Shown here piece after piece: positions 4,591 to 57,033 of a stretch of 64,000 nucleotides of DNA. This stretch comes from Opitutia bacterium Tous-C4FEB (GTDB lineage Bacteria; Verrucomicrobiota; Verrucomicrobiia; Opitutales; Opitutaceae). The stretch spans positions 186,001 to 250,000 of the forward strand of contig NEVA01000001.1 of NCBI GenBank assembly GCA_002304445.1, read 5' to 3'. The stretch's first letter is position 1. Each line of letters starts with the position of its first letter. A program made the translations under genes and the position numbers. Below the pieces are notes generated by a model that was given only the letters and a program-made list of their open reading frames with translations, was not told the DNA's origin and made no database searches.

Positions 4591-6153
4591 TTACTTGGCG
4601 GATTTGGCTTTTTTCGCTGAGCCGACAGGTTTCGGCTCCCAGCGGAAATTCTCGCCCTCAGTGACGAGGCGCAGCGCATTCGTCTCCGGGCCGGGTGCGA
4701 CGAATTCTTTGGGCGCGCTCTGGCGCAGCTCGGCCATCACGGTGCGATAGCTTTCCTGCGGGGCGAGGTTGTCCCATTCGTTCGGGTCTTTGACGACGTC
4801 GTAGAGTTCCTCGGCGCCGTCGGCGTGGTGAATGTAGCGCCAGCGGTTGTTCACGATCGCGTAGCCGCCGGGCAGCACGTCGCAGAGGAGGACGTTGCGG
4901 TCTTTGGCCTGGGCGGGTTGGCGCAGGACGTTGGCGAGCGACTGGCCTTCGAGGCTGGCGTCGGGGGCGAGGCCGCACAGTTCTACCAACGTGGGGAACG
5001 TGTCGATGGCACTGACGGTCGCGTTGACGTTGGCCCTGCGCGCGATGCCGGGGCCGGCCCAGATGAACGGGATGTTGGCGGTGCGCTCCCAGAGCGAGTG
5101 TTTGCCCCAGTGGCCTTTCTCGCCGTGGTGATAGCCCTGATCGCTCCAAAAAATGACGACGGTGTTGTCGCGGGCAGCGCTGGCGTCGAGGGCGTCGAGC
5201 ACGCGGCCGAGCATCGCGTCGGCATAGGAAATGCAGGCGAGATAGGCGCGGATGACCTCCTTCATCTCGCCGAGTTCGTTCAGCTTGTCGTGGATGGTGG
5301 CCTTGCGGCGGTCGTTGAATTTCTTGATCGCCGGCGGGAGATCGTCGGTGTCTCCATCCTTGGTCGGGGGCAGCTTGATTTCGTCGAGCGGGTAGAGGTC
5401 GTAGTATTTTTGCGGCGCGTAGTTGGGGAAGTGCGGCGCGTAGAGACCGAGCGCGAGGAAGAACGGCTGCGTGTGCGCGCGTTTGAGCACGTTGATCGCC
5501 CACTCGGTCTGCTGCGTATCGGCCATGTCTTTTTCGACTTCATTGGGGAGCGGCGCATACTCCATGAACGTGCGGTCCGTGCCGGCGCGCATCTCGCGGG
5601 TAAACTTGCTGTAAGGCTCCGGCGTCGGGAGTGGCGCGCCGCTGCGCCAGCTGTCAACGGGCCAGCCGGTCTTGCGTTGAGCCGGCGTGCGCGGATTAAA
5701 CTCCGTCCAGCCGCGCAGATCGACGTAGCCCGCCGGATGGTGAAACAACTTGCCCGTGCCGTAGGTCGCGTAGCCGCCCTGCTGGAACGCGACCTGCATC
5801 GGGCGTAGTTCGGGTCGGTCGTGGTGATAGACTTGCGTGGTGTAGGCGCCCGTGGTGGACGGATGCCGCCCGGTGAACAGCGCGGTGCGAGACGGCGCGC
5901 AAAACGTGCCGCAGGCCTGCGCGTTTTGAAACGTCACCCCGCGCGCGGCGAGGCGATCTAAGTTCGGGGTCTTGGCGCGGATGCCGGAATTCAGCGGACC
6001 CACCCAGTCGTTGAGATCATCGGTGGCGAAGAAGATGACGTTGGGCTTGGCAGGTTTGGACGGAGCGGCGGCGTGGGTCGTGAGCGCAGGGATCAGCAGG
6101 GAGGCGACGAGCAACGCCGTTTGAGCCGATTTGGAAGGAGAGATAAAGATCAT
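4591..6153 (-). CDS. Secreted sulfatase (iduronate-2-sulfatase type)
   Basis: This is a 520-residue formylglycine sulfatase of the iduronate-2-sulfatase-like branch. That branch is suggested by FATDDLNDW in place of ADDLGYG and by GTGKLFHHP in place of GKWHLG. The active-site motif is CAPSR with Cys85, then TALFTGRHPST. A signal peptide occupies about residues 1-30. WSDQGYHHGEKGHWGKHSLWER is the typical C-terminal substrate-side segment of this branch. The final residues GSAKKAKSAK are basic. The gene sits 31 bases after the sugar-isomerase-like gene and 11 bases before the next sulfatase, within the operon. 'Iduronate' here is only a family name; the natural substrate could be another sulfated sugar. 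Confidence 0.93.
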   Translation of the reverse strand: MIFISPSKSAQTALLVASLLIPALTTHAAAPSKPAKPNVIFFATDDLNDWVGPLNSGIRAKTPNLDRLAARGVTFQNAQACGTFCAPSRTALFTGRHPSTTGAYTTQVYHHDRPELRPMQVAFQQGGYATYGTGKLFHHPAGYVDLRGWTEFNPRTPAQRKTGWPVDSWRSGAPLPTPEPYSKFTREMRAGTDRTFMEYAPLPNEVEKDMADTQQTEWAINVLKRAHTQPFFLALGLYAPHFPNYAPQKYYDLYPLDEIKLPPTKDGDTDDLPPAIKKFNDRRKATIHDKLNELGEMKEVIRAYLACISYADAMLGRVLDALDASAARDNTVVIFWSDQGYHHGEKGHWGKHSLWERTANIPFIWAGPGIARRANVNATVSAIDTFPTLVELCGLAPDASLEGQSLANVLRQPAQAKDRNVLLCDVLPGGYAIVNNRWRYIHHADGAEELYDVVKDPNEWDNLAPQESYRTVMAELRQSAPKEFVAPGPETNALRLVTEGENFRWEPKPVGSAKKAKSAK

Positions 6154-6184: not shown

Positions 6185-7294
6185 TCAGGTGGTTTTCAGC
6201 CCGGCGCCATAACGGCGTGCGAAGGCCACGCTGCGCTCGAACTCGGCGCGCTGGTATTGTCTTTCGAACGCTTTCGCGTCGGTGCCGGCAGGCGGCTTGA
6301 CCAACTCCAGCGGACGGCCGCGGCGACAGAGGGCGAGGAAATCGGCGATGTCGGCGGCGCGAGTATTGGGATAAACCTTCCAATGATCGCGCTGGAGAAA
6401 CGGGATCGGGCGCGGCGAGTTGGAGATGATCTCCAGGTGGAGCGGCGCGGCCGGGCAGTGGCGTTGCATGAGGCCAACGAACGCGGGCACGTCCATGAGG
6501 CCTTCGCCGAGAGCGGTCCATTGGAACGTCGCGCCCTCGGGCGACTCCCAGACCATCCAGTCGCGCACGCTCGTGCAGAGCACGTGGGGCGCGAGCAGTT
6601 CGAGCTGTTTCATAGGATCCTCCATGGCCCAGACCGCGTTGCCCGGGTCGAGCATGACGCCGACGACATCGGTGCCGGCGGCTCGAATGAGTTGGAGTAA
6701 CTCTTCCGAGCGGAGATCGCCCGCGTGATTTTCGACGGCGAATTTCACGCCGGCGTCGAGGGCGCGGCTGCGGACGGCTTTGAGGGTCTTGAGCAGTTCG
6801 GCCAGACGCGCCTCGATGCCTCCGGGAGTGGCCCGATCGGGAAAGGCGCCGATGCGGCAGTTGACCACGGGCGAGCCGAGATCGGTGGCCACGCGCACGC
6901 CGAGAGCGAGCAGGGCCTCCGCGCTACCGTGCTCTTTCGTGAACGTGGTCGAGCCTTCCGCGACGCTACCCACGCCGACGTTGATCCGGAGACCGCGCTC
7001 GGCGGCGGTTTCACGCAGGGCGCGCAAATGGGCGGGTTCGAGACTTTCAAACGGGCGCAGTCCGTTCAAAAGGACGGCGTCGAGTTTTTGCTCGGCGGCG
7101 TAGTCGATCAGTGGGCGGGCCTTCCAACCCATGCCGCGCACCGAGTGGGCGTCGAGGCCGAGGGCGAGCCGAGGGGCCGCGGCGGTCGGTTGCGCAGCGC
7201 GCGAGTTTACGGACGCAGCCGCAGCGGCGACGCCCATGAGTTTGATGAAATCGCGGCGTCGAATCGGAGGCGGTTGAAGAACGATCGGATTCAT
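6185..7294 (-). CDS. Tat-exported sugar phosphate isomerase/epimerase-like TIM-barrel protein
   Basis: This is a 369-residue protein. The N-terminus carries a twin-arginine signal (RRRDFIKLMG, residues 12-21) and an Ala-rich stretch, so it is predicted to be exported folded. The body is the xylose isomerase-like TIM barrel (AP endonuclease 2 family). It has GAFPDR, FAVENHAGD (candidate metal-binding Glu/His), VVGVMLDPGNAVW, and a C-terminal LHLEIISNSP segment. Such proteins are common beside sulfatases and glycosidases in Planctomycetes and Verrucomicrobia and act on free sugars or are of unknown activity. It starts 3 bases after the TonB receptor stop, so the two are co-transcribed. The reaction is not known. 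Confidence 0.8.
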   Translation of the reverse strand: MNPIVLQPPPIRRRDFIKLMGVAAAAASVNSRAAQPTAAAPRLALGLDAHSVRGMGWKARPLIDYAAEQKLDAVLLNGLRPFESLEPAHLRALRETAAERGLRINVGVGSVAEGSTTFTKEHGSAEALLALGVRVATDLGSPVVNCRIGAFPDRATPGGIEARLAELLKTLKAVRSRALDAGVKFAVENHAGDLRSEELLQLIRAAGTDVVGVMLDPGNAVWAMEDPMKQLELLAPHVLCTSVRDWMVWESPEGATFQWTALGEGLMDVPAFVGLMQRHCPAAPLHLEIISNSPRPIPFLQRDHWKVYPNTRAADIADFLALCRRGRPLELVKPPAGTDAKAFERQYQRAEFERSVAFARRYGAGLKTT

Positions 7295-7297
7295 GGG

Positions 7298-10200
7298 TCA
7301 GTAGGCGATGGTGGTGGTGAACCTGACGGAGCGTGGTTCCAGCAGATCAAATCGGCTGTAGGCCACCCCGCGGCCGCCCGGAAGGTTGTAAGGGGGAATG
7401 GCCGAGAATCGCTGCGGCAGGAGACCGTCCTGATTGAACAGATTCGAGACATTTACCTGATACGTGATTGAGCCGCGCATTTTTCCGAGGCCTGCGGGGT
7501 GCCGATAGCGCAGCATGAGATCGGCGACCGAGATCGGGCGGCCCTTGATCTCGGCCGCGCTGGCCGTGCGGCCGATAATGTTGGCCATCTGCCAGCGGTA
7601 GCCGAATCCGGTAGAGAAACCTTTCAAGCGCCCCTCGGTGAAATCGTAAGCCGTGAAGAGATTCATGCGGTGAGGTCGCAGGCCCCAGCGCTGCTCGTTC
7701 TGGCGTTTGTCTTCGTTGATCTCGGAGATCATGTTTCGAATTTCCTCCGCGACCGTAATGTTGTTGGTCGTGTTCAAAGTCGTGAGGTTCGCGGCGGGCG
7801 TGCGGTTCCCGAGTTCGATCCACTTGGCGACGGTGCCACCGGAAGAGAAGGCCGATGGGTTAACGGTGAACGTGCCGTTGGCATTTTGCGTCACGCCCTC
7901 CTTGAGCAGGTTACCCTCGAAGGTGTAGCCATACCACGGAATCGCATCGGCGCCGGATATGTTGGAGCGGATGCGGTCGGTGTAGGAGTAGTTCAGGGTG
8001 AGGCGCCAGTTTGCGGTCAGGTTGGCGACGGCGCTGAACTCGTAGCCTTTCGAGTCCTCGTCGAACTGGTCGGCGTTCACGGTCGGAGTGATGGCGGCCC
8101 GCGTCGCCGTCCATTCGGCGGCAGAGATCGGCCGGCCGGCACCGACGAGCACGCTTCCGAGCGCGTCGGCGATGCGGATGTTGCGGAGGTTGTATTGCGC
8201 GTTGATGCCGCCGCTCTTGGTCTGGCCGGTTTGGCTGGTGGTGAAGGCTACGGCCCGGAGCGAAAGGCGGTTGTCGAGGAGGTTCAGCGCCAAGCCGTAA
8301 TCCTCGCCCTGACCGCGCGTGGGATCGGGGATCGTGCCGTTGGGCAGAACCTTGTTGGTGAACGTGGGCAGGCCGATGTTGCTGGAGCGGTTGCCGAGGA
8401 TGGAGAGCCAGTCGGTGACATGCACCACCACGCCCTGCGAGCGCGTGATTCCCTTGAGGCGGTTGACGGTGGCTTTGGCGGGGTCGCGATCAACCCGCGG
8501 CGTCCGCAGGACGGGATCGGTGGAGTAACCGAAGGAGGTGACGTCGCCTTCGTCCTCGCGGTAGCCCGCCGTGGCGACAAGCCGCCGATTGAAGAAATGG
8601 CTGTGCGCCACGATCAATTTGGAGGCGAGTTCCTGCTCGGCACCGGCGTGGGTCGTGCCGGCGTCGCCGTCGATCCAGCCGACGTCGTAAGTGCGGCCGG
8701 CAGCGGTCACGGTCTTGGGCAACCGGCGCCAATCAGGCGCGATGAACGAGCCCGGGTTTTTCTCATCGAGGTAGGCGCGCTGCAGCACGAGATTGCTGGC
8801 GTTTTGCGGGGCGGCGTTGAACGGCGCTCCCATCAGACCAAACCGACGGGCGTTGTAGAAATCCGTATCGTCGGAGCGCGAATACATGCCGGCGAAACGG
8901 TGCGTGCCCGCCCATTTCCACTTAGGGTCGAAGTCGTAGGACAACGAGACCCGGGATTCGCGGAAAGTGGCGCCATGCAGTTCGTTATACCACGGGGCGT
9001 CGATGTAGAGCCGGCCGGCATAGGGATTCACTGGACCATTGACGCCCAGCGTGCGGTTGACCTCCCCGGCGATCAGCGGCGTGGAGCCCTTGATGAGCGG
9101 ATTTTCGATTCTCACCTCCTGATAGTGGTGCGCCACGTTGAGGGTGAGCCGGGAAGTGATCCGCCAGTCGGCGGTGAGCGTGTAATTCTCCAAGCGGGTA
9201 TCGCGATACATGCCGGGCCCGCCGGAGTTGATTTCGTAGGGCAAAATCGAGGGGTCGTTTAGCGAGAGTTGCACACCGCTGACCCCTGGCGTGCCGTCGG
9301 GCGCACGCACGGCGGGGTTGTTGTAGGAGCCGGTGATGAACGTGCCGCTCGAGTCGAAAAAGGTGCTGTCGTTGTCGATGAAGATAAAGCGACGGGTGGT
9401 GGCGGCCGTGCCCACGTTGCGGGCCGTCACACCCAGCGCGATCTGGGCGGCCGTGGGGTTGGTGTTGTTCGGCGTGAAGGTGACGGCGCCCACTCCCTTG
9501 GCATTGCGGTTGTCGATCCAGGCCAGCGCGCCGTCGAAGGCCGGAAACGGCGCGACCACGGAGCGATGTTCACGGCCGGTTTCGCCGGTGGCGCGAAACG
9601 TGAGGCGATCCGTGGGGGTGAATGTGACCGTCCCGAATAGCCGATCCTTGTCGTAAAACGACGGCTGGCGCCAGCCCCCGTTTTCCTGATGCAAGCCCGC
9701 CACCGCTAGAGCGAGCCTCTGCGGGATAATGACTTGGTTGTGGCGGACCGTGGAGCGATTCGTGCCGTAGTTGCCGAGTTCGTAGCTCAGGCGCCCGCTC
9801 GTGCGCTGCGTGGTCGCAAGGATGGAACTTTGGTTGATGATGCCGCCCGCATCACCCACGCCGAAGAGAATGCTGTTGGGTCCGCGGCTGTCATCGTAAC
9901 GGTCGATGCGATAGCCGTCGTTGACCGTGATACTCTTGAAGTAGTCGATGCCCTGGGCCGAAAGGATGCCGCGCACATTGATGCGCTGGATCACGTTGGC
10001 GCCGCCGAGCATGTTGTTCGCGTTGGGGCCGGAGTTAACGTCCTGGGTGTTGATCTGCGAATTGACGGAGTAATCGATGATTTTTTCGATTTCGTTGAGC
10101 CCGAGATCGTCGAGGAAAGCCCGCGTGAAGACGGAGATCGATGCCGGCGTGTCGCGCAGGCTCGTGTTGAGCCGGCTGCCGGCGAGCGTGTTCTCGGCGC

Positions 10201-10375
10201 GGTAACCTTTGTCGTCGGCAGCGTTGACGGTGAACGGGCTGAGTTCGACGACCGGTTCGACCGCCGGCTCTATCCGTGCAGCGGGAGCCGTCGGCGGCGA
10301 AACCGTTTGTGCGATCAGCTGGGCCAAGGGCAACGTGCAGAGGGCGGACAACAGAACGGGGACTTTTAATTTCAT
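7298..10375 (-). CDS. TonB-dependent outer-membrane receptor
   Basis: This is a 1025-residue receptor. The ATG at 10375 is chosen because it gives a clean signal peptide (MKLKVPVLLSALCTLPLAQLIAQ); the longer upstream reading frame lacks one. After the signal comes VELSPFTVNAADDKGYRAENTLAG, the plug-domain start typical of verrucomicrobial receptors and containing a plausible TonB box. A plug (IEKIIDYSVN..., GVGDAGGIINQ) and a long beta-barrel follow, ending in the aromatic residue Tyr (TTTIAY), the usual outer-membrane beta-barrel signal. It should import oligosaccharides or another large ligand by the energy of TonB. It lies between sulfatase genes, which supports a glycan ligand (inference). 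No SusD-like partner is present. Confidence 0.9.
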   Translation of the reverse strand: MKLKVPVLLSALCTLPLAQLIAQTVSPPTAPAARIEPAVEPVVELSPFTVNAADDKGYRAENTLAGSRLNTSLRDTPASISVFTRAFLDDLGLNEIEKIIDYSVNSQINTQDVNSGPNANNMLGGANVIQRINVRGILSAQGIDYFKSITVNDGYRIDRYDDSRGPNSILFGVGDAGGIINQSSILATTQRTSGRLSYELGNYGTNRSTVRHNQVIIPQRLALAVAGLHQENGGWRQPSFYDKDRLFGTVTFTPTDRLTFRATGETGREHRSVVAPFPAFDGALAWIDNRNAKGVGAVTFTPNNTNPTAAQIALGVTARNVGTAATTRRFIFIDNDSTFFDSSGTFITGSYNNPAVRAPDGTPGVSGVQLSLNDPSILPYEINSGGPGMYRDTRLENYTLTADWRITSRLTLNVAHHYQEVRIENPLIKGSTPLIAGEVNRTLGVNGPVNPYAGRLYIDAPWYNELHGATFRESRVSLSYDFDPKWKWAGTHRFAGMYSRSDDTDFYNARRFGLMGAPFNAAPQNASNLVLQRAYLDEKNPGSFIAPDWRRLPKTVTAAGRTYDVGWIDGDAGTTHAGAEQELASKLIVAHSHFFNRRLVATAGYREDEGDVTSFGYSTDPVLRTPRVDRDPAKATVNRLKGITRSQGVVVHVTDWLSILGNRSSNIGLPTFTNKVLPNGTIPDPTRGQGEDYGLALNLLDNRLSLRAVAFTTSQTGQTKSGGINAQYNLRNIRIADALGSVLVGAGRPISAAEWTATRAAITPTVNADQFDEDSKGYEFSAVANLTANWRLTLNYSYTDRIRSNISGADAIPWYGYTFEGNLLKEGVTQNANGTFTVNPSAFSSGGTVAKWIELGNRTPAANLTTLNTTNNITVAEEIRNMISEINEDKRQNEQRWGLRPHRMNLFTAYDFTEGRLKGFSTGFGYRWQMANIIGRTASAAEIKGRPISVADLMLRYRHPAGLGKMRGSITYQVNVSNLFNQDGLLPQRFSAIPPYNLPGGRGVAYSRFDLLEPRSVRFTTTIAY

Positions 10376-10448: not shown

Positions 10449-11963
10449 TCAGGGCGCGGCCACCCGCCTTTGCGCGGCAGCTTGCGAGCGCACGTCGGCG
10501 AGGAGCTTCCGGCCGCGCTGCGCGATGGCGGAAAATTCCGGGGCCTTGGCGAGATTGGTCCATTCCCGCGGATCACCCTCCAAATCATAAAGTTCGTTGA
10601 GCTCGGGCTGGCCCCATTCCGTGTAGCGCCAGCGGTCGAAACGGATCGCCGTGCCGAGGGTCTCGCCGCGCTTCACGACGGTGTAGGCCCACTCTTTGCC
10701 GGGGGCCGAGGCATCGCGAAGCTGCGGCGCGAGCGAGCGGCCTTGGAGATGCGCGGGCGGCTTGACCGAGCACAGCTCCGCGAGCGTGGGAAAGAGATCC
10801 AGCATCTCGACGAGGCCGCGGGCCTGGGAGCCGCGCGTCACGCCCGGCACGCGCACAATCAGGGGAACGCGCGCCGATTCTTCGAAGAGCAGGACTTTCC
10901 CCCACATAAAATGCTCGCCGAGATTGTAGCCGTGGTCGCCAACGAACACGATGATCGTGTTGTCCCATTGCCCGGAGGCACGCACCGCGTCGAGGATGAC
11001 GCCGAGCTGCGCATCGATGAACGAAATGCACGCGTAGTAGGCTTGGGTGAACTCGCGCCGCCGCGCGTCATTTTCCTGTCCGAGCGCAGGGAAGCCGTAG
11101 TCCGTATACTGTTTCGTCGCGGCAATCGCCGGAATGTCGCTCCAGTCATTTTTCGGCGGGTTGACCAGTTTCAGCGAATCGCGCGGATACAGGTCAAAGT
11201 AGCGATCCGGCGCGAGAAACGGGATGTGCGGCTTGTGCAGACCGACCGCGATAAAGAATGGCTTCTCGCCGTGGGCGCGGTCGGTGAGCCACCCGGCGAC
11301 GCGGCGGGCGTTTTTGCCGTCGTCGTGCTGCTCGTCCCGCAAGCCTGTCGGGCCATAGCCGGGTCCGAGACCCTTCACGCCCTGATTGCGCGTTTGGGGT
11401 GCGACCGTGAGCAGATGTTCGCGCCACTTTGGGCGGTTGCCCGGTTTGGTCACCGGCCCGTGCTCAAGTTCGAACTTCTCGCGCGCAACCCGCTCGACCG
11501 CCATCTCGTCATTTTCGAATGCTTCCGCGAGATCCCACGTGTTGCCGCCGGGATTGTCGGTGCGTTTGTGAAAGACCTTGCCCACCGAGGCCGTCCAATA
11601 GCCGGCGTCGCGAAAAATCTGCGGCATCGTTGGGGTGCCGGGGCGGGTTTCGGCCAACGTGACCACGTTGTCCAAGACGCCGGTGCTCTCGGGATACAAC
11701 CCGGTGAGAAACGAGGCGCGCGTCGGCCCGCAGACGGGATATTGGCAATAGGCGCGGCGGAACGTGGTGGCTTCAATGGCGAGCCGGTCGAGCACCGGGG
11801 TCAGCACGCCCTCATAACCGGCCGGCGAAATCCGCGCGCTGAGGTCGTCGCTGATCACAAAGAGCACGTTGGGCCGGCGGGCCGGCGCCGTGCCATCGGC
11901 GGCGGCTACGCTCAACAGGCCGAGCAGAAGGAATGAGGGGATGAAAACGAGAAAGTTGCGCAT
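10449..11963 (-). CDS. Secreted sulfatase (iduronate-2-sulfatase type)
   Basis: This is a 504-residue formylglycine sulfatase. A signal peptide (about residues 1-22) is followed by NVLFVISDDLSARI. The active-site motif is CGPTR (Cys78), then ASFLTGLYPEST. SVGKVFHKRTDNPG is the GKxFH segment of the iduronate-2-sulfatase branch, and VFVGDHGYNLGEHFMWGK the late Asp/His segment. The gene is separated by 203 bases from the upstream small dehydrogenase subunit gene and has a run of nine C on its coding strand (11968-11976) directly before the start codon. No Shine-Dalgarno sequence is visible there. The TonB receptor gene follows upstream in coordinate order (it starts at 10375), transcribed in the same direction. 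Confidence 0.94.
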   Translation of the reverse strand: MRNFLVFIPSFLLLGLLSVAAADGTAPARRPNVLFVISDDLSARISPAGYEGVLTPVLDRLAIEATTFRRAYCQYPVCGPTRASFLTGLYPESTGVLDNVVTLAETRPGTPTMPQIFRDAGYWTASVGKVFHKRTDNPGGNTWDLAEAFENDEMAVERVAREKFELEHGPVTKPGNRPKWREHLLTVAPQTRNQGVKGLGPGYGPTGLRDEQHDDGKNARRVAGWLTDRAHGEKPFFIAVGLHKPHIPFLAPDRYFDLYPRDSLKLVNPPKNDWSDIPAIAATKQYTDYGFPALGQENDARRREFTQAYYACISFIDAQLGVILDAVRASGQWDNTIIVFVGDHGYNLGEHFMWGKVLLFEESARVPLIVRVPGVTRGSQARGLVEMLDLFPTLAELCSVKPPAHLQGRSLAPQLRDASAPGKEWAYTVVKRGETLGTAIRFDRWRYTEWGQPELNELYDLEGDPREWTNLAKAPEFSAIAQRGRKLLADVRSQAAAQRRVAAP

Positions 11964-12166
11964 CGGCGGGGGGGGGTAGCTTCGGACAAAATTGGGGCAG
12001 AGGTGGACCAGTGATGGCTGAGAAAGGGGGCAGAGCCGCGCAGGCGGTGGGGCGAAAGGCTATGCCGCGAAGGAGGCAGGTTTGGACAAAATCTTCCCAA
12101 GAGCGTTTGCGCGCAGAACGGGAGCAGCGTGCGATTGCCGGGCCGGGCGCGCGGACGTTTGAAAGC
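11964..12166. other. Intergenic gap with C9 tract and two GGACAAAAT copies
   Basis: These 203 bases separate the small dehydrogenase subunit gene from the sulfatase on the same strand. They contain no convincing gene. Visible are a run of nine G on the plus strand (11968-11976), a GGACAAAAT word at 11984 and again exactly 100 bases away at 12084. The run of G falls where the ribosome binding site of the sulfatase should be. The gap is long enough to hold a promoter for the sulfatase/TonB receptor part of the cluster, but no standard -35/-10 pair could be assigned. Confidence 0.4.
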
Positions 12167-12826
12167 TCAGGCCAAGCCGAGTTTCGCGAGGACCTCGGGC
12201 GGGGGACCGTCAAATGAGGCCAGCGGGACGTTGGCGACGTAGCCGATGTCTTTCATGCCCTCCGGCGTGGTGTAGAATCCTCCGGCGGTGAGATCGCGGA
12301 AGCGTTTGAAGAATCGCGCGGCGGTTTTGAATTCGGGCTTCGCTTTGGCGACGAGGCAGATGTCTTCACAGAGGGCGTTTTTCTGGCGAAGAATGAGACT
12401 TCCGAAGTCCGATTGAAATCGGCGCTGCGACTCGGCCTCGATCCATGCGAGGCCCTCGACCACGATCTGGCGGTCTTGATCGTGCTCAGGGTAGGGCGCG
12501 CTGATCCACTCGTCGATGAACGCAGGCACGCCAACCGTGGAAGCGGCCGGTGAGATCGAGTCGGCCGGGATGATGGTATCGCAAAGAGCGGTGGCGGTGC
12601 GGAGCTGATCTTCGGTGAAGGTCAACGACCAGAGGTCGCCGGGCTTGTAGGTCTTTTGAAGATCAGGGTCCGTGCCGTAGCCAACGGCCGACGCCGGCGT
12701 GGCGGCGCTGAGAGAATTCTCATCCAAAAGTGCGATCGAGGCGGCGGCCGCGAACATCCACTTGATTGAAGTCCGACGGTCGATACCGGCGGCAGGGCGT
12801 TGGGGGAACGGTTTCATGTCAGACAT
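12167..12826 (-). CDS. Gluconate 2-dehydrogenase subunit 3-like small subunit (Tat-type)
   Basis: This is a 219-residue protein of the gluconate 2-dehydrogenase subunit 3 family. The N-terminus has a twin-arginine-like signal (IDRRTSIKWMF) and an alanine-rich segment. The body has the family pattern LTFTEDQLRTATALCDTIIPADSISPAASTVGVPAFIDEWIS. In known membrane gluconate, sorbitol and fructose dehydrogenases the small subunit carries the Tat signal and takes the flavoprotein across the membrane. The gene overlaps the GMC oxidoreductase stop by 8 bases; a second ATG at 12817, 1 base after that stop, is an equally possible start. No cytochrome c subunit follows. Confident family call; partner substrate unknown. 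Confidence 0.88.
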   Translation of the reverse strand: MSDMKPFPQRPAAGIDRRTSIKWMFAAAASIALLDENSLSAATPASAVGYGTDPDLQKTYKPGDLWSLTFTEDQLRTATALCDTIIPADSISPAASTVGVPAFIDEWISAPYPEHDQDRQIVVEGLAWIEAESQRRFQSDFGSLILRQKNALCEDICLVAKAKPEFKTAARFFKRFRDLTAGGFYTTPEGMKDIGYVANVPLASFDGPPPEVLAKLGLA

Positions 12827-14621
12827 TTCCTTTCTTCATTTCCCCGATCAGGTAGTCGCCCATGCGCCACGCGAGGGCCATGATGGTGAGCGTGGGATTC
12901 TTGTCGGCGTTGGAGCAAAAGGTGGCGCCGTCGCCGAGGAAGAGGTTGGGCACGTCCCAGGTCTGGCCAAAGGAATTGGTCACCGAGGTTTTGGGACTGT
13001 CACCCATGCGGGCGCCGCCGACCTCGTGTTTCACGTTGCCGCCCGGCCGAATGGCCGTGAGCGGATTGGCGGCGGGGGGTTGGCGGACTTTTCCGCCCAT
13101 GGCTTCGATGAGTTGCGCAAATGTTTTCTGGGCATGGGCGACCTGGCGGAGTTCATGGTCGGACCATTGCCAATGAAAGCGCAGGGCCGGCACGCCCCAC
13201 TTGTCTTTCACGACGGGGTCGAGTTCACAGAAACAGTTTTCGTTGGGAATCATTTCGCCCCGGCTCGCGAAGCTCACCGAAGCGCCGTAGTAGCGCCGGG
13301 CATCCTCCTTGAACTGCCGGCCAAAACTGCCGCCGGTGAGATGCTCGAGGTTGGCTCCGGTGGTGACGTTGGGCATCCTTCGGCCGGTGCTGAACTCAAC
13401 GTGGTAGCCGCGGGCGAAATCCAGTTTGCCGGCGAGCTGTTCGCCATAGAGCCACCACGGGATGTAAACGTGCGCGCCGCCCGCGCCGTCTTCATTGTGG
13501 ACCGGCAGATTTTCCAAAAGCGGGATGTGGCCGCCGAGCGCGGCGCCGACGGTGTCCATGATGTATTTCCCCACGACGCCGCTGGAGTTGGCGAGGCCTT
13601 GGGGGAAACGGGCGGACTTGGAGTTGAGGAGAATGCGCACGGAGTCGCAGGAACTCGCGGCGAGCACGACGACGCGGGCGGTGGCGCGGCCCTCGGCACC
13701 GGTTTTCTTGTCGACGTGGATCACGCCGGTGGCCTTGCCGGCGGCGTTGAGCGTGACCTCGCGGACCATCGCATCGGTGAGGATGTCGAGGTTGCCGCTG
13801 GCGAGCGCGGGCGGCAGGTGGACCGTGGTCGATTGGTAGTTGGCCTTGGTGGCGCAGCCGCGACCGCATTCGGTGGCCCAGAAACAGGCGGCCCGGCTCC
13901 GCATCGACTCGGCGAGGAGGCGCTGCGCCTTGGGATTGCCAGGGTGGAGTTTGGCGGGGATGGCGTCGGCGTCTTGGCGGACACTGAGCACGGCGCGGTG
14001 AATCGGCACGACGGGCAGGCCGAGTTTTTTCGCGCGTTGCTGGGCGAGGAGTTCGCCGGCGCGGGCCTTTGGAGGCGGCAGAAGCACGCCGGGGGAAGAG
14101 TCGGGGGTGTTTTCGAGACCCGTGTTCGAGCCGTAGACGCCGACGAGCATTTCGACTTTGTCGTAGTAGGGCGCGACATCGTCGTAGCCGATCGGCCAAT
14201 CGAAGCCGAGTCCGTCGCGGCGGTGCGGCTTGAAATCGTAGGGCCCGTTGCGGAGCGAGATCCGGCCCCAGTGGTTGGTGCGGCCACCCAACATCCGCGC
14301 GCGCCACCACGTGAATTGGCGCGTGGGATCGGCGGAGGCGTTGGTGTAGGGCTCGCCGGGGACCGCCCAGCCGCCGTCCACCGTTGAATCGTAAAAGCCC
14401 ATCGGCTTGTCGGGTGTGTTGGCGGCGCGCAGCGGAGCCTGTCCGTCGGTCTGAAACATCGGCGTCTCCTTCACCGGGTCGTAGTTTCTCCCGGACTCAA
14501 TCATCAGGACTTTCAAGCCCTCCATGGTGAGGGTGTAGGCGGTCTGGCCGCCTGCGGCGCCGGAACCGACGACGATCACGTCGTAGGTGGGCTGAGTTTT
14601 GTCGGACGTAATGATCGGCAT
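12819..14621 (-). CDS. GMC-type FAD oxidoreductase (large subunit)
   Basis: This is a 600-residue flavoprotein. The Rossmann FAD-binding motif DVIVVGSGAAGGQTAYTL lies near residue 13. A Cys-containing segment WATECGRGCATKANY follows in the middle. The C-terminal GMC signature has KHEVGGARMGDSP (candidate catalytic His) and the family ending NPTLTIMALAWRMGDYL. It has no signal peptide of its own, which fits export together with the Tat-type subunit encoded immediately downstream. It likely oxidises a sugar or sugar-alcohol hydroxyl. The start at 14621 is chosen for the FAD motif position; longer frames add unlike sequence. It lies 13 bases after the FecR-LamG gene in the same operon, so its expression is probably tied to that signalling pair. 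Confidence 0.9.
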   Translation of the reverse strand: MPIITSDKTQPTYDVIVVGSGAAGGQTAYTLTMEGLKVLMIESGRNYDPVKETPMFQTDGQAPLRAANTPDKPMGFYDSTVDGGWAVPGEPYTNASADPTRQFTWWRARMLGGRTNHWGRISLRNGPYDFKPHRRDGLGFDWPIGYDDVAPYYDKVEMLVGVYGSNTGLENTPDSSPGVLLPPPKARAGELLAQQRAKKLGLPVVPIHRAVLSVRQDADAIPAKLHPGNPKAQRLLAESMRSRAACFWATECGRGCATKANYQSTTVHLPPALASGNLDILTDAMVREVTLNAAGKATGVIHVDKKTGAEGRATARVVVLAASSCDSVRILLNSKSARFPQGLANSSGVVGKYIMDTVGAALGGHIPLLENLPVHNEDGAGGAHVYIPWWLYGEQLAGKLDFARGYHVEFSTGRRMPNVTTGANLEHLTGGSFGRQFKEDARRYYGASVSFASRGEMIPNENCFCELDPVVKDKWGVPALRFHWQWSDHELRQVAHAQKTFAQLIEAMGGKVRQPPAANPLTAIRPGGNVKHEVGGARMGDSPKTSVTNSFGQTWDVPNLFLGDGATFCSNADKNPTLTIMALAWRMGDYLIGEMKKGNV

Positions 14622-14634
14622 AGTGGGGAGACGG

Positions 14635-16182
14635 TCAGCGCACGGAATCGAACAGGCTGCGAATCTGCGCAGGCGTGAGGGCGCGATGGAACACGGTGAG
14701 TTCGTCCAGCTTGCCGTCCCAGAAACCGGCATTGTTGAGCTCAGGCTCGAGGCCGTCGCCCAGCTTGACGCCGATCCCAAGCGAGGAAGGGGCAATCTGC
14801 GTCAGGCCGTCGCAGGGTGTTGCGGCAACTTCCTCTCCGTTGCGATAAAGGCGCAGCATGGTGCCATCGAGGGTAAAGGCGACAAACTGCCATTCGCCGA
14901 GCGGGAGCGGGACGGAGTCGCGGACACCAATCTCGGCACCGGCTTGGTCGTGCACATGCACCTCGAGACTGCCCTCGTCGTGCCATAGACCAAAATGGAA
15001 CTGGCCCCCTTGGTTTCGCCCGGCGTTTTTCGCCCAATTTTTCGCGATGCTGGCCCAGCGCGGGCGACTCTCCGCCCGCACCCAGGCGCACACGGTGAGG
15101 GCGGCCGCCGGAGCGGTGAGGAAATCCGGGACCACGGCATAGCTGCGGTCAGTCGAGCCGCCGAGGCGCAGGCCAGCGCCGATTTTCCCCGGGGCCGACG
15201 TGCGCTCGCTCGCGCCGCGAATGATCCGGCCGTGGAGATGTTGGACCGAAACGTCGACGAGCTGGGTAGCGTCGGGCGTTATCTTCATCCGGTAATCGGC
15301 AATCGGCTCAAATTGCCGAATCAGATCGCGGTAGCTGCTCCCGGGCTCATCCAGCGTGCGGATGAACAGCTCGGGCTGGAAATCGATCCCGGTGGGCGTG
15401 CGCGTCCGGGTGTCGATCCGGGAAGCGCGGCTTTCGGTGAGCCGGAGCGAGTCTGGCTCACCGTTGTTCTGAATCATGACTTCACCCTTGAAGACGTGAA
15501 CATCGCTGCTCCGGGCGCCGGCACTCACGCCAAACTCGGTGCCGAGATCAACGATCTTGGCGCTGGGAGTTTCGATGGTGAAGCCGATGGCCTGGGCGGG
15601 CACGTTCGCGGTCGCATTGCCCTCGGCGAGCCAGAGCAGGGTCGCGCTGCGGAGATCGAAGCGGGCGGGTGATGCGAGCACGATCACGACGCCACTCGGG
15701 TAGGTCAGCTCCAGCAAACCACCGCGGAGGTGCAGGGCCCCGCCGCGCAAGGTCGAGCCGACGGTGGCGGGGGTAAGGCGTTCATCCGCCAAAAGCTCGG
15801 CGCCGCTGGCATTTGAAATGGTGGCGATGGGACCGCCGTGGGCCGTGGAACCGGTCGGCGCGTATCGCCAGGCGAGGAGCGCGGCCACAATGAAGCACGC
15901 GGCGATGGCGACAAACCGCCAATCGCGCAAAAGCGAAACCCGTCGGCCGGCGTGCCGGGCTTCCGGCGGCACGGGGCAGGCAAAACGGCCGTGCGTCAGT
16001 CGCAACTCGGCGCCGAGCATCGCAAGGGCGGCAAAGGCTTCGCGGGCGGCGACGGATTCGGCGAGGATACTTTCGAGCTCGGCGACCTCGGCGTCGGCGA
16101 GAGCATTGTCGCGTAGTTTCTCCGCGAGCTCGGCGAGCCGATTGAGTTCAACGGCAGAGAGTGAAAGGGACGGGTTGCTCAT
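14635..16182 (-). CDS. FecR-domain membrane protein with C-terminal LamG domain (putative anti-sigma sensor)
   Basis: This is a 515-residue protein. Residues 1-80 are cytoplasmic-like and helical (a long run rich in Ala, Glu and Leu), and residues about 90-107 form one membrane helix. Residues about 120-265 match the FecR fold (LLELTYPSGVVIVLASPARFDL; TPSAKIVDLGTEFGVS; VHVFKGEV). The C-terminal part, about 340-515, is a concanavalin-like LamG domain (LTVCAWVRAE...; WQFVAFTLDGTMLRLYRNGEEV; GKLDELTVFHRALTPAQI). The gene overlaps the sigma-factor stop by 4 bases (ATGA). By analogy with FecI/FecR it should hold or modulate the sigma factor, with the LamG domain outside possibly binding a glycan (inference). 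The start at 16182 is set by that overlap. Confidence 0.85.
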   Translation of the reverse strand: MSNPSLSLSAVELNRLAELAEKLRDNALADAEVAELESILAESVAAREAFAALAMLGAELRLTHGRFACPVPPEARHAGRRVSLLRDWRFVAIAACFIVAALLAWRYAPTGSTAHGGPIATISNASGAELLADERLTPATVGSTLRGGALHLRGGLLELTYPSGVVIVLASPARFDLRSATLLWLAEGNATANVPAQAIGFTIETPSAKIVDLGTEFGVSAGARSSDVHVFKGEVMIQNNGEPDSLRLTESRASRIDTRTRTPTGIDFQPELFIRTLDEPGSSYRDLIRQFEPIADYRMKITPDATQLVDVSVQHLHGRIIRGASERTSAPGKIGAGLRLGGSTDRSYAVVPDFLTAPAAALTVCAWVRAESRPRWASIAKNWAKNAGRNQGGQFHFGLWHDEGSLEVHVHDQAGAEIGVRDSVPLPLGEWQFVAFTLDGTMLRLYRNGEEVAATPCDGLTQIAPSSLGIGVKLGDGLEPELNNAGFWDGKLDELTVFHRALTPAQIRSLFDSVR

Positions 16183-16712
16183 GGCCGGGCCGAGTGGAGC
16201 TTGGCGTTGACGCACCCAACCAGGCGCACGTGGAGACGGGCGAGAGCCTTGTAGACGGCGTGGACGGTGCTGCCGACGTGATCGGCGATTTCGTCCACGT
16301 TCTCACCGGAGTGGTAGCGCCGGCGCACGAGTTCAGAATCGCGCTCCTTCAGCTGGCCGAGGCAGGCGCGGAGAGCTTCGGCGCGATCGGTGGATTCCCA
16401 ACGGGCATCGGCGAGGGATTCCGCAAGCGATTCGATCGTCTCATCACTCAGGCGAGCCTGCGCCCGCTTCTGACGGGCATAATAACTCATGACCTGAAAC
16501 CGCGCGATCCGCAGGGCCCACGCGCCGAAATCGGTGCCGGTCTGAAACTCGCCGAACTTCCGCCACAGCACCAGGCAGGTTTCCTGCATCACGTCATCGG
16601 CATCGGGGCCGCGCGGCACGAGCGAAAAAATCAAACCCGCGATCCGACGTTGGTTTTGCAGCAGCAAACGGGTGAAAACTTCACCGTCGATCAATGTCCG
16701 GGTTACTTGCAT
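16179..16712 (-). CDS. RNA polymerase sigma factor, short sigma-70 (Rhodopirellula/Verrucomicrobium type)
   Basis: This 177-residue extracytoplasmic-function-like sigma factor has region 2 with DADDVMQETCLVLWRKFGEF and FGAWALRIARFQVMSYYARQKR. Region 4 has LKERDSELVRRRYHSGENVDEIADHVGSTVHAVYKALARLHVRL, a helix-turn-helix for -35 recognition. The pattern matches the sigma subfamily found mainly in Planctomycetes and Verrucomicrobia. It lies directly before, and overlaps by 4 bases, the FecR-LamG gene, as in known sigma/anti-sigma pairs. It probably directs transcription of the local oxidoreductase, sulfatase and receptor genes. The promoter it reads is not known. Confidence 0.92.
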   Translation of the reverse strand: MQVTRTLIDGEVFTRLLLQNQRRIAGLIFSLVPRGPDADDVMQETCLVLWRKFGEFQTGTDFGAWALRIARFQVMSYYARQKRAQARLSDETIESLAESLADARWESTDRAEALRACLGQLKERDSELVRRRYHSGENVDEIADHVGSTVHAVYKALARLHVRLVGCVNAKLHSARP

Positions 16713-17091
16713 CGGGCTGGGGTTGCGGGGGGATACCTGCGGAGAAGTAATACCGCCGGGTATCCCGAACTGGACAAAAATCCGCGGGCATTCTCACGCG
16801 TCCGACGTGATCCGCGATCAGCCCGCGTGCCTCGACCGCCACGAGCCCTCGTTTTGAGGACAGAAAGCAGGCTCTTCTTTGGCCGGACGCTGCCGGCCTC
16901 AACCTCGTCTTGGATTGCACCTGATTCGGCGAGGTTAGTCGGCGGGAGGAATTGACGAGGAAACCACGGTAGGGGCAGCGGCTGGAGTGACCAATCACGG
17001 GACGCATGCAAAGATGAATCCCGTTGGCTTGCGTGGGTTGCTCGGTGTCACGCTCGACCGCGCGATCACGGCCGGCGGAGCCCGAACGGGG
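16713..17091. other. Intergenic region upstream of the sigma factor
   Basis: These 379 bases lie between the TonB receptor stop and the sigma-factor start on the same strand. No convincing gene was found in either strand. It should contain the promoter of the sigma/FecR/GMC operon. A GGACAAAAA word at 16772 (reading TTTTTGTCC on the coding strand, 60-69 bases before the sigma start) resembles the pair found before the sulfatase at 11963. No strong terminator with a T run is visible after the receptor gene. Confidence 0.4.
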
Positions 17092-20000
17092 CTAGAATCT
17101 CACACTCGCCGTGAGTTCGTAGGTGCGGGGCTGAACGTAGATCCGTTGCAGGTAGTGCGGCGTGCCGTTGCCGGCATCGACGGCGCTGTTCGGAAAAGTC
17201 TCATCGTGATTCAGGACGTTTCGCACCCGGAATGAAACCAACCAGTTTCTGTTTTTGCCCAGCAGATTGTTTCTCCAAGTGTAGCTGGCGAACGCATCGG
17301 TCACCAAGGACTCGGCGCCTTTGAACGCGTTCTTCACAATGAACGTGCCGGCAACCTCCGGGTAGCCGATCGTGGGCGCATCACGCCAGCGCGCACTGCC
17401 GCCCACCCGCAGACCCTTCAACACCCCCTGATCGAAGCCGTAGCTCCCGACCACGTTCACCAGCCAATTGTTGCCGCGGATCCGGGCGCCACCGATTTGG
17501 GCTTCGTGGTAAGCCAGCCGACGTTCGATCCCTTGGATGTAGGTTCCGATCGTCCGGGTGGCATTGAACGCGGGGTTGGCGATGAGCGACGTGATGGCCG
17601 CGTCACTGCGGAAGGGCAGGACGTATTGTTCATACCAAGGCCGGGTGAATTTGTAGGTGCTGTTCAGCGTCGCATCATTGTAAGAAACGTTCAGCGACAT
17701 CCGCAGTTGTTTGGTCGGATTGAGGGTCGCCTCCAGTTCATAACCCTCCGTCAAATCCGACTCCACGTCCGACCAGAGCTGGTTGCCCGTGTAGTCGGCG
17801 AAACGGGGCGAGCCCGTCACCTTGGCGCCAAAGCCGTTGAGGACCATGCCCTCGAGGTAGCGTTCGACATATCCGTTCTGCCGGGCCATCTCGATGCCGA
17901 TCGCGCCATCCCGCAGCGGGTTTGAGACCCGGTTGAGGGCTTCGTTGTTAAAGTAATTCAGCTTCAGAATCACGCGATCGTCCAAAAAGAACCCGCGGAG
18001 ACCGAGATCATAGCCTTGGCCCTCCTCGTCGGGCAGGGTTTGGCGAAAGATATCATAATTGGTGCCGCCGGCACCCACCGTGTTCGTCGAGGTGTTGGCG
18101 AAAGCATCGAGCCACTTGGTGACTTTGACGACCGCGCCAAAGTTGTAGTTTTTGACCGATGACTTTCTCGCCGGACTGAACGCGCCCTCGCCCCGGTTGC
18201 GAAAAAGCCGGGTGACCGGATCCTGCGCGAACACAAAATTCCTGGAGCTGATTTCGTCTTGGCGCATGCCCGCCGTGAGAATCAACCGACGGGAGAACAG
18301 TTCCCACTGGCCGAGGGCGGCGTAGGATTTGGTATTCTCCGGCGCGTAAACGGGATTGAGGCGGTTCAAGAAACCCGACCTGACCGCAGGAACGACCCCG
18401 CCCGGGATGGCCGGGTTGGCGGCTTGGTTCAGGTCGGATTTGCCAAACTCCAAAGCCGGAAAGTGAACGGGTTGTCCGGGCAGCAAATAGTAGCGCCGGC
18501 GGATCTGATTTTGGGTATCTGCGAGCACGCCGGTCGGCAGGACTGAGAGCGTGGTCATTTCCTCCGGCTGCGAGAAGTAGCTGTCGACGTTTCGGTAATA
18601 ATGAAACGCGACCGCAGTGAGCTTGCCGAGGTCGAAGCCCTTGATGGGCTCGATGCGACTGAGGTCGAATTGTTGGGTGACAGTCGCGCGATACTGTTTC
18701 GTCACCGAGTCGCGTTGCTCCAGCTTGGCATTGCCCTCGACATACGGGACTCCGAAATAGGGATTGAGCGGCTTCGTGGGATCCGGGTTGTTCGACGCCA
18801 ACTGGGTCGGGAGATAGTAGTTGGGGTCGATGAAGACCTCGTAGTCGCCGCGGGTGATCGGCTGCCAGTCTTCGTTGAAGACATCTTCGTAGGCTCCGGC
18901 CAATTCGAAGTAGGTTTTTTCCAAAACCTTCTGCTGCCATGAGCCCGCATACTTGTCGTAGCGGGTGTTAAAGTGCTCCGAAGGTCCGGGCACCATGGTG
19001 CTCAGCGGAAAGTTGACCCCAGGAATCACGGTGCGTGGGGAAATCGAAGTCGAGTTTTGGGTCAGGCCATTCACGAACGCCTCCGAACCCCGTGATTTCG
19101 ATTTCCAATTCTGCACACCCAGCTCCGGCGCGTTCATGATATAGAGGAGATAATTGGCGGTCGAAAACCCCTGAGTGACCCCGGCGCGGACGTTGCGGGC
19201 CGCCGTTTGCGCCGCCCCCGTGCCCGAAGCGACGAGGAAATTGTCGATCCGGTTCGCTTTGTCGAAGTTGCTCAACGGGGAGTTGAGCCAGGCGGAGACG
19301 CTGTCGTAGGCGAGGTAGGCGCGGGGAATCGATTCCTCCAATTCGCCCGTTTCCGCACTCACGTTGAAGGTCGCACCCTTGAAAGGCTCGATGGTCAGAT
19401 TCAGGTAGCCCGAATTGCGGCGAGCATACTGCAAGTCGCGCGGGGTGCGCTGATCGGTGGACACGGCGGCGAAGCGCGCGGCCAACTTTCGCGGAATGAG
19501 GATCTGGTTGATATCCACACTGGCGCGCTTGGAGCCCTCGGAATCGAAACGCAGCTCCAGGCCAAAAGTGTTGGCGTTGAAACGGCCCAGCTTGTTGGTG
19601 GCATCGAGTCCTCCACCGACCGAACCCAAGCCGAAGAGCAGGGAATTGGGCCCCCGGGATTGGGTCACCGACTCGGTGTTGTAGTTGTCCACTTTGATCC
19701 GGCTGGTGAAGAAATTGTTCGTCAGCGAACTGGAGCGGAAGCCACGCACCATAAAGGGCGTGCCCGTGCGCGTGCTGACGCCTTCGGGATCGGAGGAATC
19801 CCCGTTGAAGGCCCGGGTGCTGGGCAAAAACTCCAACGCTTCCTCGTAATTTACCGCGCCAATATCCCGCATGAACTCCTCGGTGAGAACAGAAATAGGA
19901 TTCGCCAGATCGCGGACCTGAGACCTCAGCTGGGTCCCGGAAAGCGTCTCCGAGGCATAGTAACCTTTGTTCGCATCGGTGCTGACGACGAACGGGTTCA

Positions 20001-20118
20001 ATTCGACCGGGGCTTCCTGGGCCACCGAGGCAACGGAGGGCGGGGGTGGCGCGACCGATTGGGCGAGAGCAGTGGCCGCGATCAGGGAAATAGTCAGGGC
20101 AAGGCAGGGATTTTTCAT
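17092..20118 (-). CDS. TonB-dependent outer-membrane receptor
   Basis: This is a 1008-residue receptor. The ATG at 20118 gives a signal peptide (MKNPCLALTISLIAATALAQ). It is followed by VELNPFVVSTDANKGYYASETLSGT, the plug start with a TonB-box-like segment. The plug continues through DIGAVNYEEALEFLPSTRAF, GTPFMVRGFRSSSLTNNFF and GLGSVGGGLDATNK. The remaining residues form the barrel and end with the aromatic Phe (LTASVRF). It should be an energy-driven importer at the outer membrane. It is the most upstream gene of the minus-strand block and precedes the sigma/FecR pair, an arrangement seen in glycan-responsive systems. Ligand unknown. Confidence 0.9.
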   Translation of the reverse strand: MKNPCLALTISLIAATALAQSVAPPPPSVASVAQEAPVELNPFVVSTDANKGYYASETLSGTQLRSQVRDLANPISVLTEEFMRDIGAVNYEEALEFLPSTRAFNGDSSDPEGVSTRTGTPFMVRGFRSSSLTNNFFTSRIKVDNYNTESVTQSRGPNSLLFGLGSVGGGLDATNKLGRFNANTFGLELRFDSEGSKRASVDINQILIPRKLAARFAAVSTDQRTPRDLQYARRNSGYLNLTIEPFKGATFNVSAETGELEESIPRAYLAYDSVSAWLNSPLSNFDKANRIDNFLVASGTGAAQTAARNVRAGVTQGFSTANYLLYIMNAPELGVQNWKSKSRGSEAFVNGLTQNSTSISPRTVIPGVNFPLSTMVPGPSEHFNTRYDKYAGSWQQKVLEKTYFELAGAYEDVFNEDWQPITRGDYEVFIDPNYYLPTQLASNNPDPTKPLNPYFGVPYVEGNAKLEQRDSVTKQYRATVTQQFDLSRIEPIKGFDLGKLTAVAFHYYRNVDSYFSQPEEMTTLSVLPTGVLADTQNQIRRRYYLLPGQPVHFPALEFGKSDLNQAANPAIPGGVVPAVRSGFLNRLNPVYAPENTKSYAALGQWELFSRRLILTAGMRQDEISSRNFVFAQDPVTRLFRNRGEGAFSPARKSSVKNYNFGAVVKVTKWLDAFANTSTNTVGAGGTNYDIFRQTLPDEEGQGYDLGLRGFFLDDRVILKLNYFNNEALNRVSNPLRDGAIGIEMARQNGYVERYLEGMVLNGFGAKVTGSPRFADYTGNQLWSDVESDLTEGYELEATLNPTKQLRMSLNVSYNDATLNSTYKFTRPWYEQYVLPFRSDAAITSLIANPAFNATRTIGTYIQGIERRLAYHEAQIGGARIRGNNWLVNVVGSYGFDQGVLKGLRVGGSARWRDAPTIGYPEVAGTFIVKNAFKGAESLVTDAFASYTWRNNLLGKNRNWLVSFRVRNVLNHDETFPNSAVDAGNGTPHYLQRIYVQPRTYELTASVRF

Positions 20119-56977: not shown

Positions 56978-57033
56978 GGCGGCGAAGGTAAAACGCGAAC
57001 CGGGTGGCGGGGCAAACGGAAAGTTTCACGCCT

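Follow-up and report, generated by a model that had tools for sequence, protein, structure and literature searches.

A sigma factor and a FecR-LamG protein at the head of a sulfatase-rich polysaccharide locus in an Opitutaceae bacterium

Organization of the Locus

The window analysed here is a stretch of 64,000 nt from the genome of Opitutia bacterium Tous-C4FEB (3.76 Mb in 39 contigs). Four genes lie head to tail on its minus strand, encoding an extracytoplasmic function (ECF) sigma factor of the Rhodopirellula/Verrucomicrobium family (16179..16712), a 515-residue FecR-LamG protein with the make-up of an anti-sigma-like sensor (14635..16182), a 600-residue GMC-family oxidoreductase that uses flavin adenine dinucleotide (FAD; 12819..14621) and a small Gluconate_2-dh3 subunit with a twin-arginine motif (12167..12826). 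The sigma stop and the FecR-LamG start (ATG at 16182) share a four-base ATGA overlap, 13 bases separate the end of the FecR-LamG gene (14635) from the ATG of the GMC gene (14621), and the reading frames of the GMC protein and the small subunit overlap by eight bases (12819 versus 12826). This order, the spacing and the domain assignments had been described in a first-pass annotation of the window and are confirmed at these coordinates. The annotation closed the unit at 12167. The run of genes continues past this point, and the four genes are the head of a sulfatase-rich polysaccharide locus.

Coding resumes on the same strand about 200 bases beyond 12167, with a sulfatase (10449..11963; Pfam, 9.7e-47), a TonB-dependent receptor (7298..10375, its start picked by sequence in a reading frame extending to 10588), a TIM barrel protein resembling xylose isomerase, in which a twin-arginine translocation (Tat) signal is weakly matched (6185..7294; Pfam), three sulfatases (4591..6153, 3179..4579 and 1770..3182; Pfam), a GH99-like protein with an assumed start (439..1713; Pfam 7.5e-6, below the curated cut-off) and a last sulfatase cut by the window edge. 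The far side of the four-gene unit is occupied by a second TonB-dependent receptor (17092..20118, minus strand) and by divergent sulfatases. Altogether, Pfam identifies in the window locus two receptors, eight sulfatase genes (including the truncated one), the GH99-like gene and the sigma/FecR-LamG pair. With a receptor, degradative enzymes and a regulator in one cluster, this is a polysaccharide utilisation locus. The sign of the GC skew flips around window position 20000, at the switch in gene strand between the two sulfatase arms.

Domains and Predicted Fold of the Sigma Factor and the FecR-LamG Protein

The sigma factor matches Sigma70_r2 in Pfam (4e-15) and scores 150.3 bits against TIGR02989 in NCBIfam, for a cut-off of 124.55; it is the only gene of its genome above this cut-off. 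Another ECF sigma gene, from the same broader family, is located at 56345-57025 of the window (minus strand). It scores 83.1 bits, under the TIGR02989 cut-off, and no FecR match was found beside it within the window.

The FecR-LamG protein matches FecR (PF04773; 8e-7, 29.8 bits against a gathering threshold of 24) and Laminin_G_3 (4.5e-27, 95.5 bits against 27.6) in Pfam. By score and by fold, it is a member of the FecR protein family. The protein can be divided into N-terminal helices (residues 10-64), a membrane helix (88-107), a FecR domain (~115-282) and a LamG domain (~283-515). Only one membrane helix is present; the best hydropathy window starts at residue 90, in line with the modelled helix. 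The LamG domain, first described as extracellular, should with this single helix be placed in the periplasm. These phyla have a diderm envelope, so the sensor would be periplasmic.

The structure prediction that had been proposed as a check was carried out. The whole-protein model, built from 41 sequences, has a mean predicted local distance difference test (pLDDT) of 86.9 and a predicted template modelling score (pTM) of 0.58. Because LamG fills the fold-match rows of the whole model, the first 287 residues were also modelled apart (pLDDT 87.3, pTM 0.62). The modelled FecR domain superimposes on residues 111-251 of PupR (Z 16.0, root-mean-square deviation (rmsd) 2.9, 133 residues aligned), which correspond approximately to the first PupR subdomain, and on a putative anti-sigma factor of Parabacteroides (Z 15.4). 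PupR has two such subdomains (110-238 and 250-324), and binding of the signalling domain of the receptor requires both, according to the review PMC9249621. In the predicted structure, LamG (283-515) occupies the place of the second, receptor-docking subdomain. FecR_C has no Pfam match in the protein at E ≤ 1.

The LamG model resembles domain 4 of the arabinanase AbnA (Z 21.9, rmsd 2.8, 199 residues aligned, 24% identity), whose structure was solved with a sugar ligand beginning 'arabinot', according to its title. Glycan binding by LamG would fit the similarity of its modelled fold to domains of which some bind sugars. The modelled N-terminal helices show a weak match to the cytoplasmic domain of MucA (Z 5.8) and to ChrR (Z 3.0). 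Gly214-Thr215 of the FecR domain falls within a G-T-x-F box; FecR and FoxR are reported, in part of PMC9249621, to cleave themselves at such a Gly-Thr dipeptide. The genome also encodes an RseP homologue above cut-off.

Conservation of the Sigma/FecR Unit and Its Partners

As a sequence, the FecR-LamG protein is not new: relatives are common. A scan of one genome per species (84,980 species) gave at least 512 places encoding a FecR-LamG relative, of which the best 80 were kept, with flanks of up to 8 kb (many contigs being shorter). Since LamG was part of the query, members with LamG are favoured. The sigma gene is located upstream of the FecR gene at all 80 loci, LamG has a profile match at 68 of them, and the four-base overlap between sigma stop and FecR start recurs in 46 of the 75 pairs that could be judged. 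At E ≤ 1e-25, the FecR-LamG profile matches 30 of 288 genomes of the phylum, in some cases over the FecR half only. Units of sigma and FecR-LamG also occur in gammaproteobacteria (Gilvimarinus, Colwellia and an uncultured member of Pseudomonadales; L137, L139, L142, L148 and L159), outside the phyla that hold most of the 80 loci; the one at L139 lies beside a sulfatase.

A first set of 18 loci had been taken from similarity matches, not all of which were fetched; its 19 FecR genes, with those of L069 and of the window, make 21. Sigma adjoins 18 of these 21 genes (of the other three, two are truncated by the end of their contig), LamG is present in 11, and the G-T-x-F box in 20, the exception carrying Gly-Ser. 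The box is equally found in all five classical FecR genes of the window's own genome.

The place of LamG can be taken by other modules. LamG has no profile match at 12 of the 80 loci. Ten of these were scanned and yielded CBM96 in one (L187) and NPCBM in two (L138 and L154), all over cut-off, a weak LamG in one, a weak DUF6401 in two and no module in four. Seven other members, neither LamG-bearing nor classical, gave CBM96 below cut-off in two and nothing beyond FecR in five.

The two closest FecR-LamG relatives are found in Opitutaceae metagenome assemblies. In L112 (FecR-LamG 72% identical), sigma and FecR-LamG are directly followed by a receptor that is 57-59% identical to the window receptor 7298-10375, the isomerase-like gene (81%) and a sulfatase (81%, related to 4591..6153). 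A sulfatase run with a GH99-like gene (86%) lies on the same contig, as does a relative (76%) of the window receptor 17092-20118. In L114 (61%), the order is sulfatase (73%, related to 10449..11963), sigma, FecR-LamG, sulfatase (77%), receptor (84-85%) and sulfatase; this receptor (L114:10857-14107) is split over two reading frames, by an assembly error or gene decay. According to these two orthologues, the conserved partners of sigma and FecR-LamG are the receptor 7298-10375 of the sulfatase-rich locus and sulfatases. The receptor 17092-20118 was rejected as a direct partner of sigma, its relative lying about 25 kb from the L112 sigma gene.

The GMC Oxidoreductase and Its Small Subunit

The GMC protein (Pfam GMC_oxred_N/C) begins directly at its FAD domain, so export would have to go via the small subunit, which matches Gluconate_2-dh3 (Pfam, 6.3e-24) and carries the motif RRTSIKW. 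By sequence, the nearest solved relatives of the GMC protein are an FAD glucose dehydrogenase and the large subunit of fructose dehydrogenase; none was found for the small subunit.

In the first-pass annotation, FecR-LamG was regarded as a sensor coupled to this oxidoreductase. A neighbourhood survey of the four families was proposed, with a linkage confined to this genome as the result that would speak against the coupling, and this is what the survey gave among the loci examined. Neither the GMC gene (0/80) nor the small subunit (0/80) was found at the sigma/FecR loci, and no sigma match at the 22 other GMC loci. The GMC profile detects relatives at about 34% identity (6/6), so that a lack of sensitivity does not, down to this level, account for the missing gene. 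The 22 fetched loci, several on short contigs, contain 23 GMC relatives at 66-82% identity and, at 19 loci, the small subunit; at one of them, a classical FecR gene lies some 4 kb upstream, on the far side of a receptor. The GMC protein was therefore rejected as a conserved partner of the sigma/FecR pair.

Locus L067 carries a receptor (59%), the GMC protein (82%), the small subunit (77%) and sulfatases, and no sigma or FecR gene was found in its 13 kb. Because L112 and L114 are devoid of a detectable GMC gene and L067 of sigma and FecR, the GMC genes and the sigma unit appear to be independent cassettes brought together in this locus. The GMC-small subunit pair looks like a lineage-specific accessory of the locus. 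At L073 (contig C30 of the same genome) and L067, the GMC-small subunit or receptor cassettes adjoin a response-regulator/sensor-like pair instead of sigma and FecR, judging by a look at the sequence, as though one enzyme cassette had changed regulators. At L076 (contig C48 of genome G036; L076:9849-14103), a single small-subunit gene is located between two GMC genes, which suggests one export partner serving two enzymes.

A Candidate Promoter Motif

The two-part motif TGTCCA-N16-GGYATWRC is a candidate sigma-dependent promoter. It was derived by eye from three sites, in the regions upstream of the window sigma gene, the window sulfatase and the L112 sigma gene. The first, P1 (TGTCCA-N16-GGTATTAC; 16747..16776, minus strand), is an exact match 34 bases ahead of the sigma start codon, and the second, P2 (TGTCCA-N16-GGCATAGC; 12059..12088, minus strand), an exact match 95 bases ahead of the start codon of the sulfatase 10449..11963. 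At zero to one mismatches, these are the only two sites in the whole genome, both in this locus. No site at this level was found in first-order Markov sequences (20 x 64 kb).

At the sequence level, the promoter argument is carried by the exact matches, four in the L112 genome (G333; one used in the derivation) and one in the L114 genome (G334). Those outside the derivation are L112:15491, ahead of the sulfatase related to 4591..6153; L114:5861, ahead of the sulfatase-sigma operon and with the 73% sulfatase directly 3' of it; C116:23032 of G333, ahead of a Tat-signal gene followed by a sulfatase, a receptor and two sulfatases; and C128:46953 of G333, just after the 76% relative of the receptor 17092-20118, as in the window, where the contig ends within the gene that comes next in G333. 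A site with one mismatch (C128:30546 of G333) heads a sulfatase run. Compared with a reversed-pattern control, sites at zero to one mismatches number 21 versus 0 in G333 and 7 versus 3 in G334. Selectivity is obtained only with the two-part motif: the bare TTTTGTCC box occurs 4 times for 1.75 expected, which 13 of 100 shuffles also reach, and is not clearly above chance.

A sister motif (approximately GTCCA-N10-GACGTKGGTATTAC) is present in several copies per genome (L276-L283 in G001, L268-L270 in G333, L272-L275 in G334). The G001 copies share flanks too (TCGCTATCGTCCAGAWATCACCAGACGT). The copies may be small repeat elements, regulator sites or promoters of another sigma factor; the fetched stretches gave no sigma/FecR match.

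Proposed Mechanism and Alternatives

We propose that sigma and FecR-LamG form a dedicated switch for the utilisation locus of a sulfated polysaccharide. That sigma serves the sulfatase-receptor locus is likely (probability of about 0.75). The computations give the gene order and its conservation, the domain replacement, the predicted folds and the confinement of the motif to this locus in its own genome; ligand binding, proteolysis, sigma release, promoter activity and the role of the enzyme are inferred. FecR-LamG would be anchored in the inner membrane and hold sigma through its helical domain in the cytoplasm. Oligosaccharides would enter the periplasm via the TonB-dependent receptor of the locus itself and bind LamG, which would change or expose the FecR domain, possibly already nicked at Gly214-Thr215. 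Periplasmic proteases and then RseP would cut the protein and free sigma, which would transcribe its own operon (sigma, FecR-LamG, GMC and small subunit) from P1 and the sulfatase-receptor operon from P2. The GMC protein and its small subunit would be a lineage-specific passenger pair oxidising a sugar product. For this full scheme, a periplasmic glycan-sensing anti-sigma factor that is RsgI-like and built on FecR, we consider the chances somewhat better than even.

Several observations weigh against these proposals. Concerning the motif, P1 and P2 both served to derive it, so that in their own genome only their exclusivity is informative, and the reversed-pattern control also gives two sites there (2/2 at zero to one mismatches). 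Site numbers exceed the control elsewhere too (13/2 in G036, 16/3 in G001, 11/2 in G006; 1/1 in G009), and G036, in which the unit has no identified close orthologue, has two exact matches. A further 16 one-mismatch sites in G333 and six in G334, examined where the surrounding sequence was fetched, are mostly unexplained, some being the sister motif. Among 101 other sigma genes of the family, the motif precedes only one, that of L112 itself, so that at most it belongs to this orthologue group; a motif general to the sigma family was rejected. Concerning the partners, a sulfatase lies within the fetched flanks at 20 of the 80 loci and a receptor at three, and neither was matched in the flanks of L113 (44%), which has a GH92 gene, or L115 (39%). 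Concerning LamG, its top profile match is an S-layer protein whose name mentions no ligand, and most of the scanned members devoid of LamG have no recognised carbohydrate module. The invariance of Gly-Thr across the 80 loci (alignment A2) is biased, the scan pattern having included the dipeptide.

The unit might regulate the same locus with LamG in a structural or protein-binding role, the trigger being, for example, envelope stress or a periplasmic protein. LamG folds serve many roles, the solved matches comprise protein-binding as well as sugar-binding domains, and binding domains of unrelated proteins score within 1 Z of AbnA; several family members also show no recognised carbohydrate module at this place. 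The replacement of LamG by CBM96 or NPCBM in some relatives nevertheless fits carbohydrate binding, and the loci with the conserved partners are sugar-degradation loci. We regard this reading, in which LamG is no sugar sensor, as unlikely. The coupling of the sensor to the GMC sugar oxidoreductase finds support in the shared operon, with its 13-base spacing and overlaps; it is very improbable given the counts above and the close GMC relatives that accompany a receptor and sulfatases without sigma/FecR (L067) or a two-component-like pair (L073).

In classical cell-surface signalling, a neighbouring TonB receptor would drive the FecR domain directly, with LamG assisting. A receptor lies directly 3' of FecR-LamG in L112, and receptors flank the unit in the window. 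Moreover, the own genome has five other, classical-looking FecR genes, which adjoin receptors; STN was detected in three of these five receptors (once over cut-off). Four of the FecR proteins were scanned (that of L107 was left out), with DUF4880 in all four (two over cut-off) and FecR_C in three (one over cut-off), and the adjoining sigma genes are below the TIGR02989 cut-off. Both signalling styles thus coexist in one genome. The window receptors 17092-20118 and 7298-10375, however, match Plug only, with no STN at E ≤ 1, confirming for the former the reported lack of a signalling extension; the L112 receptor shows no STN at E ≤ 0.01. With FecR_C not detected either and LamG in its modelled position, two features of FecIRA-type signalling, the docking subdomain and the STN of a neighbouring receptor, are missing here, and the remaining route would be a receptor elsewhere in the genome. 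We consider receptor-driven signalling improbable. The first-pass suggestion of a distinct sensor architecture is therefore retained in part: the lectin-like module at the docking place, the receptors devoid of STN and the conserved sigma/FecR pair make a receptor-independent sensor plausible, and its coupling to the GMC protein is dropped.

Sulfatase genes can be extremely numerous in planctomycetes and verrucomicrobia, and little is known about how these bacteria select the ones to be expressed. For the preferred reading, a glycan-sensing switch of the sulfatase-receptor locus, the window supplies a defined sensor, a sigma factor and a candidate promoter, making this question directly testable. 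If it is correct, knowing which C-terminal module each sigma-linked FecR protein carries would help to predict the glycans that a genome senses, promoter words would predict the responding genes, and the swap of a single domain would rewire the FecR scaffold from receptor relay to direct ligand sensing. More tentatively, at slightly under even odds, Verrucomicrobiota and Planctomycetota might possess a broad class of FecR-type anti-sigma factors in which the docking subdomain is replaced by interchangeable carbohydrate-binding modules (mostly LamG, also CBM96 and NPCBM), each with its own sigma factor and promoter word. This would be a diderm, independently evolved counterpart of RsgI, TGTCCA-N16-GGYATWRC defining one such sulfatase regulon, and one genome could read many glycans in parallel.

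Comparison with Known Systems

Within the literature searched, the regulon and the direct-sensor reading of FecR-LamG appear new. No protein combining FecR and LamG and paired with an ECF sigma factor was found in the open papers searched, nor anything on Gluconate 2-dehydrogenase subunit 3 together with GMC in Verrucomicrobia; planctomycete ECF papers of 2012 and 2020 may describe such FecR-LamG proteins. Passages of PMC7406223, in which Planctomycetes, ECF sigma factors and FecR all occur, contain nothing on LamG. Passages of PMC10434189 tabulate FecR and LamG as separate genes, and those of PMC11216935, where LamG and anti-sigma factors both occur, likewise present the regulators as separate genes.

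The GMC-small subunit pair resembles the FAD glucose and fructose dehydrogenases in its large FAD subunit and small twin-arginine partner, but the window enzyme matches the solved ones only distantly. With FecI-FecR-FecA and PupI-PupR-PupB, the unit shares an adjoining sigma factor, a single-pass FecR protein, the FecR fold and the Gly-Thr of the G-T-x-F box; it differs in having LamG where these have the second docking subdomain and in that no receptor signalling domain was found. L107-L110, with the classical FecR proteins of this genome, likewise show a FecR domain, an upstream sigma gene and a neighbouring TonB receptor. Unlike the window protein, they come with DUF4880, FecR_C and STN receptors in the proportions given above, and their sigma factors, unlike that of the window, remain under the TIGR02989 cut-off.

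A parallel in design is SigI-RsgI. RsgI of Clostridium thermocellum is an anti-sigma factor with its own C-terminal CBM3, PA14 or GH10 module and a polysaccharide-degradation regulon, as described in part of PMC4711584; parts of PMC6056542 and PMC12203970 report, respectively, that the sigma factor is usually autoregulated and that an RseP step takes place. The window unit has in common with this system a putative anti-sigma factor bearing its own C-terminal module, here LamG, and the setting of polysaccharide degradation. Its sigma family and its FecR scaffold are different, its sensor would lie in the periplasm of a diderm envelope, and FecR-LamG has no RsgI-named match in Pfam or NCBIfam. 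The unit works like RsgI, built from other parts, and is not a member of the SigI-RsgI family.

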